Origin: an uncultured Dokdonia sp.
GTDB taxonomy: Bacteria; Bacteroidota; Bacteroidia; Flavobacteriales; Flavobacteriaceae
Assembly (NCBI RefSeq): GCF_947492535.1
Contig: NZ_CANLNH010000019.1
Coordinates: forward strand, 1-64,000
Direction of reading: 5' to 3'
Length of the DNA: 64,000 nt
The notes beneath the pieces were generated by a model, which did no database searches, had not been told where the DNA came from, and was given only the letters and a program-made list of their open reading frames with translations. Positions 44,483 to 47,643 of the stretch are shown here, piece after piece (position 1 is the first letter of the stretch; each line of letters begins with the position of its first letter). Position numbers and translations under genes: made by a program.

Positions 44483-44567
44483 GGAGAAATGGCAGAGTGG
44501 TCGAATGCGGCAGTCTTGAAAACTGTTGAGGGTCACACCTCCGGGGGTTCGAATCCCTCTTTCTCCG
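44483..44567 (+). tRNA. tRNA-Ser (anticodon TGA)
   Basis: Class II tRNA of 85 nt. Acceptor GGAGAAA (44483-44489) pairs with TTTCTCC (44560-44566). The anticodon loop CTTGAAA carries TGA at 44517-44519. A long variable arm (GTTGAGGGTCACACCTCC region) and T-loop TTCGAAT follow. The 3' CCA is not encoded. It starts an array of structured repeats that copy its 3' end. Confidence 0.95.
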
Positions 44568-44568
44568 C

Positions 44569-44744
44569 TTAGAGCAAAGCTCGATTTCTGAATAGAAATC
44601 GGGCTTTTTCTTTTTATGTGAACATTAAAAGCATCGCTTTTAAAAGAGAACAGGAAAAGAAAAAGCCCAGAGATCGCCTAAGCGAGATCGAGCTTTATTG
44701 TCACCAGCGTGTGATTGAGGGATCTGTAATCCCTCTTTCTCCGC
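44569..44744 (+). repeat. tRNA-Ser-associated structured repeat, unit 1
   Basis: Unit of 176 bp ending in AATCCCTCTTTCTCCGC (44728-44744), the same 17 bases that end the tRNA (44552-44568). It opens with a 14-bp terminator-like stem (44576-44607, loop GAAT, then T-rich). An outer inverted repeat GGGCTTTTTCTTTT/AAAAGAAAAAGCCC encloses a small hairpin AAAAGC-ATC-GCTTTT, and a GATCGC-CTAA-GCGA stem lies before GGGAT...ATCCC. Confidence 0.8.
44576..44616 (+). terminator. Strong hairpin with T-tract after tRNA-Ser
   Basis: Stem AAAGCTCGATTTCT/AGAAATCGGGCTTT has one G-U pair and a GAAT loop, followed by TTCTTTTT. It is the probable terminator of a tRNA-only transcript. Confidence 0.7.
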
Positions 44745-44910
44745 ATCAAAAGCTTCACACATTAGGTGGAGCTTTTTCTTTTTCTGTAGACAGAAAGCAT
44801 AGTTTTCTCAGTCGGAGGAAAACGAAAAAAGCTTCAAGGCGTAGCCTGGAGCGTTTTGATGTATTGGATTCCCTATCTGGGATCAACATAGTTAATCCCT
44901 CTTTCTCCGC
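44745..44910 (+). repeat. tRNA-Ser-associated structured repeat, unit 2
   Basis: Unit of 166 bp ending in an exact copy of AATCCCTCTTTCTCCGC (44894-44910). It opens with stem AAAAGCTTCAC/GTGGAGCTTTT (44748-44776) and T-rich sequence. The outer inverted repeat is AGCTTTTTC.../...GAAAAAAGCT. Primary sequence differs from unit 1 outside the tRNA-derived end, while the order of structures is kept. Confidence 0.8.
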
Positions 44911-45082
44911 AAAAGAAACCTATAACGGAAACGTTATGGGTTTTGTATTTTCAGGAGCATCGAAAGTGTACTTTCGTAAGTAACTGGAAATACAAAACTG
45001 ACAAAGCATCGCTTTGTGTGGGTTTTATGCTTGTTCAGGAATTCCTTTTAGGGATCATTGTAAATAATCCCTCTTCCTACGC
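44911..45082 (+). repeat. tRNA-Ser-associated structured repeat, unit 3
   Basis: Unit of 172 bp ending in AATCCCTCTTCCTACGC (45066-45082), two changes from the tRNA end. It opens with AAACCTATAACG-GAAA-CGTTATGGGTTT (44916-44943). Its outer inverted repeat is GTTTTGTATTT/AAATACAAAAC, and it contains ACAAAGC-ATC-GCTTTGT, the same loop as in unit 1. Confidence 0.78.
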
Positions 45083-45759: not shown

Positions 45760-45856
45760 GTTTAAAAAGCTATAGAATTCGTTAATTAGTCATGCTATAC
45801 AGCAAATGACACCTACATGACATCTAAATGTCGCTATAAAAACAAGGGGGTATCCA

Positions 45857-45864
45857 TACCTTTG
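45857..45864 (+). promoter_or_regulatory. Putative -7 element of the HTH-serine hydrolase gene
   Basis: TACCTTTG (TAnnTTTG) ends 21 bases before ATG 45886. It lies inside the longer open frame that begins at 45817, which argues against that upstream ATG. Confidence 0.6.
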
Positions 45865-45885
45865 CGATATCAAAAAACGAAAAGT

Positions 45886-47643
45886 ATGGAAACCAGTTCA
45901 ATTGGAAAAAATCTAATCTATCAAAGAAAACGGAAAGGATATACGCAAGAACAATTATCAGAAGAAACTAAGGTAACAGTACGAACTATTCAGCGTATAG
46001 AAAAAGGAGATGTTACGCCGCATCTCAAAACCATCAAGCTTTTAGCAAATGCGTTAGACATAGAAGTCGATGACCTTTTGGTTTTAGAAAATCCTAAAGA
46101 AGAAGATATTCAAAAGAAATGGCTTATTCTTTTACACAGCACGCCTTTTTTAGGATTCATCATTCCATTATCAAATATATTGTTTCCGTTATTCCTATGG
46201 ATTCATAAGAGAGAAGATAATAGCATCTATGATACGCATGGCAGAAAAATCATCAACTTTCAAATTAGCATGAGTATCCTTTATCTTTTAAGTTTCATTT
46301 CTTTAGTGACTATCGAAAAATGGGGCTTTTTCTTTTTTATAACAGTGATTCCATTTAGTATTATAGTGATGCTTATTAATATCGTAAAAGTGATAAATAC
46401 TCATACCTGTTTTTACCCATTGGCATTTCCTTTTATTAGGAAAAAGAAGAAATCTAAATCTTTTACAGCGCCTAGTTTGATCATTATTGGACTATTCCTT
46501 TTTACGAGTTGTAATCATACTAATATAGCTACGATTGAGCGTTTAGACGGAACTCATATTTCTAAAGATTCACTAACCCATAAGATCAATAAACTCATAA
46601 GAGATGCTGAAGTACATGGAATGGCTGTTACAGTTTTTAATGATAAAAGCCCTATATATCAGCAGACGTTTGGATATAAAAACGTTCCTAAACAAGGTGT
46701 ATTAACCGATTCTACAAATATCTATGGTGCCTCTTTAAGTAAAGCTGTATTTGGTGTTCTTGTAATGAAATTAGTAGAAGAGAATGTCATTGATTTAGAC
46801 ACCCCGCTTGAATCGTATTTACCAAAGAAAATTTATGAATACAAACCACTTACTCGTTGGCATGATAACTATTCGGATTTAAAGACAGATTCTTTGTATC
46901 ATAAGATCACAGCACGAATGTGTCTGGCACATACTACAGGGTTTAATAACTGGCGATTTTTTGAGGCTGATAGAAAATTACGAGTACATTTTGAACCAGG
47001 TACCAAATATTTCTACAGTGGAGAAGGTCTGGTATATCTTCAGGTGGTATTAGAAAAACTCACAAACAAGTCTCTTGAAGAACTAGCGCAACAGTTTATT
47101 TTTAAACCTTTGGAGATGCACAATACATCATACCAATGGCAACCTAGATTTGAGAAAGATTTTGCACATGGACATACTACAAAAGGAGAAACCTATGGCA
47201 AGGATATCGATAACGAACCTAGATCTGCCAGTACGCTAGAAACAACAGCAAGTGATTATACAAAATTTTTAACTGCTGTCTTAAACGAACAGCTTTTAAG
47301 TAAAGTTTCTTACAACGAAATGTTTAGTCCTCAGATTAGAATTAAAACCTTAGCTCATTTTGGTCCTAATTCAAGCACACTCACTAATAAGTACGATCCT
47401 ATTAATTTAAGTTGTGGGTTTGCGTGGTTATATTTTGATACACCACATGGGAAAGCAGTTACAAAAGGTGGTCATGGCGATGGATTTCAACATTATTCTA
47501 TTTTATTTCCTGAAATAGGTAAAGGAATGTTAATCATGACGAATAGTGATAATGGGGAAAGCATTTATAAGGAATTATTAGAGATTGCTTTAGCTGATGT
47601 ATACACACCTTCTGAATGGTCTAACTATATTCCTTATAATTAA
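45886..47643 (+). CDS. XRE-type HTH, membrane domain and serine hydrolase in one protein
   Basis: The 585-residue fusion begins with a cytoplasmic XRE/HTH_3 domain (about 5-62: IYQRKRKGYTQEQLSEETKV). A DUF4870-like region of about three membrane segments (~80-185) follows. KKKKSKSF then leads to a hydrophobic stretch with a lipobox-like FLFTSC (Cys209). A beta-lactamase/PBP-like domain (~225-575) carries S283-L-S-K286, YSGEG in place of Y-x-N, and GGHGDG. Each half has free-standing relatives, so this is either a true one-component sensor or two genes joined by loss of a stop. I start at ATG 45886 because of the promoter at 45857. Confidence 0.82.
   Translation: METSSIGKNLIYQRKRKGYTQEQLSEETKVTVRTIQRIEKGDVTPHLKTIKLLANALDIEVDDLLVLENPKEEDIQKKWLILLHSTPFLGFIIPLSNILFPLFLWIHKREDNSIYDTHGRKIINFQISMSILYLLSFISLVTIEKWGFFFFITVIPFSIIVMLINIVKVINTHTCFYPLAFPFIRKKKKSKSFTAPSLIIIGLFLFTSCNHTNIATIERLDGTHISKDSLTHKINKLIRDAEVHGMAVTVFNDKSPIYQQTFGYKNVPKQGVLTDSTNIYGASLSKAVFGVLVMKLVEENVIDLDTPLESYLPKKIYEYKPLTRWHDNYSDLKTDSLYHKITARMCLAHTTGFNNWRFFEADRKLRVHFEPGTKYFYSGEGLVYLQVVLEKLTNKSLEELAQQFIFKPLEMHNTSYQWQPRFEKDFAHGHTTKGETYGKDIDNEPRSASTLETTASDYTKFLTAVLNEQLLSKVSYNEMFSPQIRIKTLAHFGPNSSTLTNKYDPINLSCGFAWLYFDTPHGKAVTKGGHGDGFQHYSILFPEIGKGMLIMTNSDNGESIYKELLEIALADVYTPSEWSNYIPYN

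Follow-up and report, generated by a model that had tools for sequence, protein, structure and literature searches.

The closest described system is RtT (RF00391), which is encoded behind tRNA-Tyr in the tyrT operon of Escherichia coli. RtT is released from tyrT when the 3' end of the tRNA is cut. To our knowledge, it is known from this one operon, and its role is unclear. The structure of RtT is discussed in the available text of PMC7657543 and PMC8250186, and that of PMC2965389 is a partial source on its function. In tyrT, repeats of ~178 bp follow the tRNA and each ends in the tRNA 3' end. Two other kinds of elements should be considered. Cis-mobilizable elements and integron cassettes are DNA segments flanked by recombination sites, and they accumulate one behind another; the integron attC site is a folded single strand. 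The Flavo-1 RNA motif (RF01705) is described as structured and widespread in Flavobacteriaceae in the available parts of PMC9723704 and PMC2864571.

The window, that is, the whole 64,000-nucleotide stretch of Dokdonia sp. DNA analysed here, contains an array with a similar plan. Three tandem units stand behind tRNA-Ser(UGA), and each closes with the 3' end of the tRNA, as an earlier note on this DNA had recognized by comparison with rtT. The units share a common fold, which consists of a four-way junction (P0–P3), a linker, and a last hairpin, P4. P0 closes the junction of the hairpin P1, the long helix P2, and the hairpin P3; the two strands of P2 are U-rich (5') and A-rich (3'), and the helix encloses an inner hairpin. 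Two covariance models were used to describe the family. R1 was built from ten tRNA-Ser units of the unit 3 type, window unit 3 included, and R2 from 66 units (alignment A3), all of which lie outside the window genome. The parts of the array are as follows (window positions, strand, feature, and evidence).

44483..44568, +, tRNA-Ser(UGA) gene, the anchor of the array (ARAGORN; Rfam RF00005, whose end is 44567)
44552..44568, +, recurring tRNA-Ser 3' end, tRNA positions 58–74 (repeat comparison)
44569..44744, +, unit 1, 176 bp, of the type opening with TTAGAGCAAAGCTC (R2 68.4 bits, R1 35.2 bits, fold z −6.9)
44576..44600, +, unit 1 P0 5' strand AAAGCTC (44576–44582), then P1 (fold, terminator scan)
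44576–44607, +, unit 1 terminator-like hairpin, made of the P0 5' strand, P1, and the T tail (terminator scan)
44601..44668, +, unit 1 long helix P2 enclosing the inner hairpin AAAGCATCGCTTT (inverted repeat, fold)
44690..44696, +, unit 1 P0 3' strand GAGCTTT (fold)
44717..44735, +, unit 1 P4 hairpin, GAGGGAT/ATCCCTC (fold)
44728..44744, +, tRNA 3' end copy 1, 17/17 (repeat comparison)
44745..44910, +, unit 2, 166 bp, of the type opening with ATCAAAAGCTTC (R1 65.6 bits, R2 85.4 bits, fold z −3.1)
44748..44776, +, unit 2 opening hairpin, terminator-like (fold, terminator scan)
44879..44899, +, unit 2 P4, GGGATC-AAC-ATA-GTT-AATCCC (R1 alignment)
44894..44910, +, tRNA 3' end copy 2, 17/17 (repeat comparison)
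44911..45082, +, unit 3, 172 bp, type AAAAGAAACC (R2 130.7 bits, relatives, fold z −6.2; in the R1 training set)
44915..44952, +, unit 3 P0 5' strand GAAACC (44915–44920), P1, and U-rich P2 5' strand (R1 alignment)
44915–44944, +, unit 3 terminator-like hairpin (terminator scan)
45001..45017, +, unit 3 P3 hairpin (R1 alignment, terminator scan)
45021..45026, +, unit 3 P0 3' strand GGTTTT (R1 alignment)
45051..45071, +, unit 3 P4, GGGATC-ATT-GTA-AAT-AATCCC (R1 alignment)
45066..45082, +, tRNA 3' end copy 3, the outermost, 15/17 (repeat comparison)

The likeness to RtT extends to the pairing. The outer stem of RtT (GGGGAAGGAU/AUCCUUCCCC) joins an anti-tRNA strand to the copied tRNA-Tyr end, as P4 does with its own tRNA, and the pattern GGAU-N-A...U-A-AUCC is common to both. 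In contrast to the units, the Rfam model of RtT lacks the P0–P3 junction, and the units involve many tRNA isotypes. At the gathering threshold, RF00391 had no match in the window or in any of 20 relative loci, where tRNA was the only family found, while the positive control, E. coli tyrT, gave three RtT matches of 112–138 bits. Conversely, R1 and R2 had no match in E. coli tyrT. Judged by sequence and predicted fold, the units work like RtT in plan and are not members of RtT. Like Flavo-1, they are structured and widespread in Flavobacteriaceae; RF01705 had no match at threshold in the 20 loci and none at E ≤ 1 in the window array. At family thresholds, only tRNA was reached in the Rfam scans of the window and the relative loci, and at E ≤ 1 the window array gave, besides tRNA, only matches far below threshold, in line with the proposal that this structure family has no Rfam entry. 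The accretion in a row resembles that of cis-mobilizable elements and integron cassettes, and the folded single strand resembles attC. The units differ from these elements in that they are gene-less, carry a tRNA-specific hairpin, and have no recombinase tied to them.

The tRNA end recurs behind tRNA-Ser at spacings of 176, 166, and 172 bp. The earlier note had the positions and spacings right; its statement that all 17 bases recur three times is exact for two copies only, as the third matches at 15 of 17 positions. Each unit folds beyond dinucleotide shuffles, with the z scores listed above, and the complete 601-nt stretch reaches z −12.5. Chance repeats can be ruled out by the tRNA-end copies together with the fold scores. 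Between 44300 and 45300 there are six terminator-like sites (four on the plus strand and two on the minus strand) against a shuffle mean of 0.6. The described opening stem with a T-rich tail was also found: a terminator-like hairpin with such a tail heads units 1, 2, and 3, and each contains at least one G-U pair. This stem appears because the P0 5' strand can extend P1 into a terminator form. The small hairpin AAAGC-ATC-GCTTT, which had been taken as common to units 1 and 3, does occur in both; it lies inside the long helix P2 in unit 1 (44628) and corresponds to P3 in unit 3 (45003), the latter assignment following the model alignment, while the single-sequence minimum-energy fold draws that part otherwise. 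A 121-aa reading frame (44618–44983) without a Pfam match spans units 1 to 3 and is probably spurious. According to Pfam, the array is preceded by a glycoside hydrolase family 3 gene and followed by a LytTR-domain gene and a gene with HTH, DUF4870, and beta-lactamase domains. The latter, at 45817–47643, is a single frame joining a Cro/C1-type HTH, DUF4870, and a beta-lactamase-family domain, its domains being assigned by Pfam alone.

The three units are members of a widespread and apparently undescribed structured family that stands behind many tRNAs in Bacteroidota. A covariance model of tRNA-Ser units, as foreseen in the earlier note, recognizes relatives beyond its own type: R1 detects window units 2 and 1, neither of which was used to train it. 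All three window units are matched by R2, which was built without them. Both models also yield antisense matches. R1 has matches at E ≤ 0.01 in 131 of 299 family genomes, representing 111 of 236 genera, and the presence is patchy, with 168 of the 299 genomes lacking a match. In the phylum sample of 392 genomes, matches were obtained in 27 with R1 and, at E ≤ 0.001, in 39 with R2, some of them outside the class of the window. At most nine candidates per genome were scored in the R1 family scan and at most seven in both phylum scans, so the numbers of units per genome are lower bounds. In the window's own genome, two further units, one behind tRNA-Pro(GGG) and one behind tRNA-Ala(GGC), score above 60 bits. 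The exact pattern of a tRNA-Ser end joined to a unit start is found in at least 119 stretches of named genomes; among the 80 matches listed, the genera include Gelidibacter, Winogradskyella, Maribacter, Arenibacter, Aquimarina, Dokdonia, Flavobacterium, and others. R1 matches 59 of these 80 stretches at E ≤ 1e-4, some of these matches being clipped by a contig end, and has no match in 21. In a literature search, mostly at the level of listings, nothing was recognized as such elements in Bacteroidota. The available text of the transcriptome map of F. psychrophilum (PMC9723704) does not mention such tRNA trailers, and the available parts of the candidate structured RNA lists in PMC2864571 and PMC8040213 describe none behind tRNA genes.

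The fold is kept while its sequence changes. In the 66 units of A3, which contains none of the sequences used to train R1, 94.0% of the pair cells are standard and 44 of 45 pairs have changed on both sides, which agrees with the compensatory change suspected from the three window units. The covariation is 0.673 against 0.159 when shuffled and at most 0.101 when slid by 1–3 columns; since A3 was fitted to the model, absolute values lean upward, and covariance alignments are biased to the model structure and to G-U. Independently of that alignment, 186 of 223 cells from the three apical pairs that come first in P4 (77 units) are Watson–Crick, with several pair types. The loops of the hairpins show which strand folds. 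In 112 units (66 + 46), loops of the sense type prevail over those of the antisense type by 56:3 for P1 and by 51:1 for P3, which indicates that the tRNA-sense strand folds. G-U exceeds A-C 103:44 in A3 (66 units) and 73:27 in 47 of 134 rows of A2, but this excess lies mostly in P2 and P1, where the U tract also explains it. Elsewhere, the ratio is 6:7 in P0 of A3, the hairpin inside P2 shows the reverse preference (10:16 and 2:16), and the ratio of 7:3 in the apical pairs of P4 is not significant. An alignment-free comparison of strand energies gives a mixed picture: the sense strand folds better in 93 of 125 cases with one tie (126 of the 131 hit loci used). The difference is −3.9 kcal/mol in the real units and −2.9 kcal/mol in shuffled ones (p 0.04), so that the shuffles carry much of the bias. 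The last 78 nt lean to the antisense strand (50 vs 75, p 0.02). Loop preferences also differ between the hairpins, as P1 favours GNRA loops (43) and P3 favours GNA/GNYA loops (47 vs 4 GNRA; p 1.6e-13). GNRA loops suit RNA, and GNA loops suit DNA hairpins. The P3 loops may therefore point to single-stranded DNA instead of RNA; the energy set used gives GNA loops no DNA bonus and treats triloops alike.

The position of the units is closely tied to tRNA genes. Of 131 hit loci (100 genomes), 91 have a unit whose start lies within −4 to +6 bases of where a tRNA gene ends, and these cover 19 anticodons. Among the remaining 40, 33 stand behind a bare tRNA 3' end with no more than two mismatches in 13, as does 1 of 131 control positions. 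These 131 loci are not a random sample, as they combine the best R1 family hits with picked lower ones and hits from the phylum sample, and they include weak and probably chance ones (L118, L120, and L121, the last being the source of the Gly anticodon). Among 20 further R2 loci, 14 have an adjacent tRNA gene, four have a bare end by eye (L356, L357, L358, L368), and two, both at ~39–40 bits, have neither (L363, L364). In one genome (G245), a unit is present at 14 of the 27 tRNAs that are not followed by another tRNA, one of them scoring only 18 bits, and is absent from the other 13 of these 27, in a tally of 32 of the 38 tRNA genes into which 19 of the 42 rows of one underlying listing were entered. 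Tandem full units with complete tRNA ends occur behind tRNA-Arg in G558, G200, and G222 (L104, L141, L159), and outside the class of the window, units stand directly behind tRNA-Ser in G617, G648, and G566. Units cluster only in part by amino acid (21 changes vs 27.7 shuffled), on a weak tree of the 43 of 66 A3 units that have an adjacent tRNA gene.

Other arrangements were seen at some of these sites. At L162, L176, L154, L164, and L171, units stand behind copies of ends like CCGGCTCCAC or CCGACTCCAC, which we take to resemble the 3' end of tmRNA, and tmRNA may be a further anchor. By eye, another palindromic repeat of the type GCGC..CTGGC...CGGTCC is present in G245 behind tRNA-Met, tRNA-Asn, and tRNA-Gln (L193, L195, L207). 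It has the tRNA on one side and a copy of the T arm and 3' end on the other, and is a second kind of insertion that duplicates the tRNA end. Seven loci (L009, L011, L013, L015, L048, L054, L059) carry tandem partial units behind a full unit; the partial units extend from the inner P2 hairpin or later up to P4.

The last hairpin connects each unit to its tRNA. The 3' strand of P4 equals the tRNA from position 58 onward, with a sharp copy boundary at 57/58. Among 90 of the 91 units, 15 retain 85% or more of the tRNA tail, and in these the identity is 3–4 of 15 at positions 54–57 and 10–15 of 15 from position 58. The 5' strand of P4 is complementary to positions 59–64 of the T arm of the local tRNA. 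The match between a unit and its own tRNA scores 6.33 of 8, against 5.51 when the tRNAs are shuffled and a maximum of 5.80 in 2000 shuffles; isotypes are unequal in this sample (Ser-TGA accounts for 32 of 91), and the score still includes any effect of common descent among the units. At position 63, the 3' strand of the unit differs from the tRNA in 25 of 83 units, and in these the 5' strand fits the tRNA in 22 cases and its own strand in three. The corresponding numbers are 19 and 9 at position 64 (41 drifted) and 3 and 17 at position 65 (50 drifted). Taken over all 83 units, the 5' strand fits the tRNA in 65 at position 63 and in 35 at position 64, and its own strand in 58 and 42, respectively. 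This comparison covers 83 of 91 units (eight were skipped) and includes some visibly misplaced 5' strands, e.g., in L098, L105, L109, L124, L151, and L169. Both strands of P4 lose the tRNA match at about equal rates, which means that P4 was made to fit its tRNA and does not imply continued selection for pairing with the tRNA. The range of isotypes, the match of the last hairpin to the local tRNA, and the occurrence in several classes of the phylum all go beyond the earlier note.

Within the genus, the same tRNA-Ser is followed by different units, so the array is conserved beside it in the sense that units of the family are present there. A unit of the unit 3 type stands directly behind tRNA-Ser in G003, G004, G006, G008, and G009. 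At this place, G011 and G012 have a unit of the unit 1 type, whereas in G015 only the head of unit 1 is present. In G005, unit 2 comes ahead of unit 1 behind a bare tRNA end, opposite to the window order, and G010 and G017 have a plain terminator. Window units 1 and 2 occupy the spot where relatives join the tRNA to unit 3. The presence of these two units there, together with the differences in order, indicates that unit combinations turn over within the genus. In G016 and G014 (L023, L032), a tyrosine integrase gene adjoins tRNA-Ser, and a unit array begins from a bare tRNA end ~12 kb away in G016 and a unit head from a bare end ~24 kb away in G014. Neither locus search gave a match in G001, G002, G007, and G013. 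At L022, L023, and L032, the tyrosine integrase genes directly behind tRNA-Ser(UGA) contain Arm-DNA-bind_5, SAM-like, and Phage_integrase domains, and the first feature behind the tRNA is, by eye, a simple terminator-like hairpin.

We interpret the array as a tRNA-anchored terminator with a folded trailer that has grown at the tRNA 3' end, one unit after another, a reading to which we give about an even chance. A few bases past the mature tRNA, each unit opens with a hairpin and a U-rich tail, which resemble the terminator of the tRNA and may terminate transcription in vivo. RNA that reads through P1 would fold into the four-way junction, with P0 closing P1, P2, and P3, and then into P4, in which the copied tRNA 3' strand would pair with a complement of the same tRNA's T-arm 3' strand. 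By analogy with RtT and tyrT, the trailer would probably be released as a ~160-nt RNA when the tRNA 3' end is cut. A new unit would be placed directly at the tRNA 3' end by an inserting machinery, leaving a ~17-base copy of the tRNA end behind; since such a copy is left at each insertion, different units would accrete in a row. The older copies would decay, apart from the stretch that belongs to P4. The state of the copies agrees with this direction of accretion: the inner two are exact, and the outermost differs at two positions. If P1 terminates well, however, most of the unit would not be transcribed, which counts against a trailer.

The most serious rival, possible but on the doubtful side, is a gene-less mobile cassette. 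Here, the folded single-stranded DNA would integrate at the tRNA 3' end in trans, through a recombinase encoded elsewhere, and restore the tRNA end; the fold would be kept for mobility and P1 so that the tRNA still terminates. The direct repeats of the tRNA end that flank each full unit are consistent with this, as are the unit types in a row in an order that differs among relatives, the tandem full units behind tRNA-Arg, and the GNA/GNYA loops of P3, although the energy set gives no DNA bonus by which such loops could be weighed. The integrases behind tRNA-Ser in relatives could act on such repeats, and the duplicated tRNA end itself looks like repeated insertion, an alternative already raised in the earlier note. 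None of the six PF00589 matches in the genome, however, lies on the window contig (C19), and the island ends inspected at tRNA-Ser in relatives lack P4. A Y1 transposase of the REP type was rejected as the mover: PF01797 is found in 58 of 131 carriers and 58 of 168 others (p 0.09, both 299-genome samples being taken as identical), and in four of 14 genomes with at least seven model matches. No blastn match of the window units was found in plasmid and phage collections, a search that would miss diverged units, and the occurrence of units at tRNA-Ser in further classes suggests long retention. Another history, in which the units are remnants, either of tandem tRNA copies that decayed or of integrative elements that left scars, is very improbable. 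In relatives, the tRNA-Ser(UGA) gene is indeed an island target with adjoining integrase genes, and the distant bare tRNA ends in G014 and G016 would suit such scars. But neither ARAGORN nor Rfam detects a second tRNA in the array or a 5' tRNA half in the window units, which disposes of the decayed copies proposed earlier; the island ends inspected in relatives differ from the units, and the stems kept by two-sided changes in 66 aligned units already contradict remnants.

It is also improbable that the units are nothing more than bidirectional terminators or insulators, in which P1 would end transcripts of the tRNA, P3 with the A-rich strand would end opposing ones, and the pairing of P2 would be a by-product of facing T tracts. 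This would account for the terminator-like hairpins at the heads of the three units, the two sites on the minus strand, and the antisense matches from both models. An antisense terminator was rejected as the whole story, given the 51:1 preponderance of sense-type loops in P3; moreover, P2, P0, and P4 covary too, which termination does not need, and the match between P4 and the tRNA is left unexplained. The accretion of trailers is the most economical account, at the even chance already given, and the mobile cassette, at less than that, is its serious rival. A broader view, which we hold tentatively, is that these are phylum-wide gene-less elements that insert at tRNA 3' ends and fold single-stranded, with a short guide strand matched to the T arm of the tRNA in front, and that are either selfish or domesticated for the maturation of that tRNA. 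On this view, each tRNA would acquire its own chain of structured trailers.

The plan of RtT thus recurs, with another fold, at tRNAs for a dozen amino acids in a phylum other than that of E. coli, which suggests that structured trailers of tRNAs are widespread among bacterial tRNA genes and have been overlooked. Through its match, P4 links the trailer to the identity of the tRNA, and it becomes testable whether the trailers act on tRNA maturation or are mobile units that land at tRNA ends.
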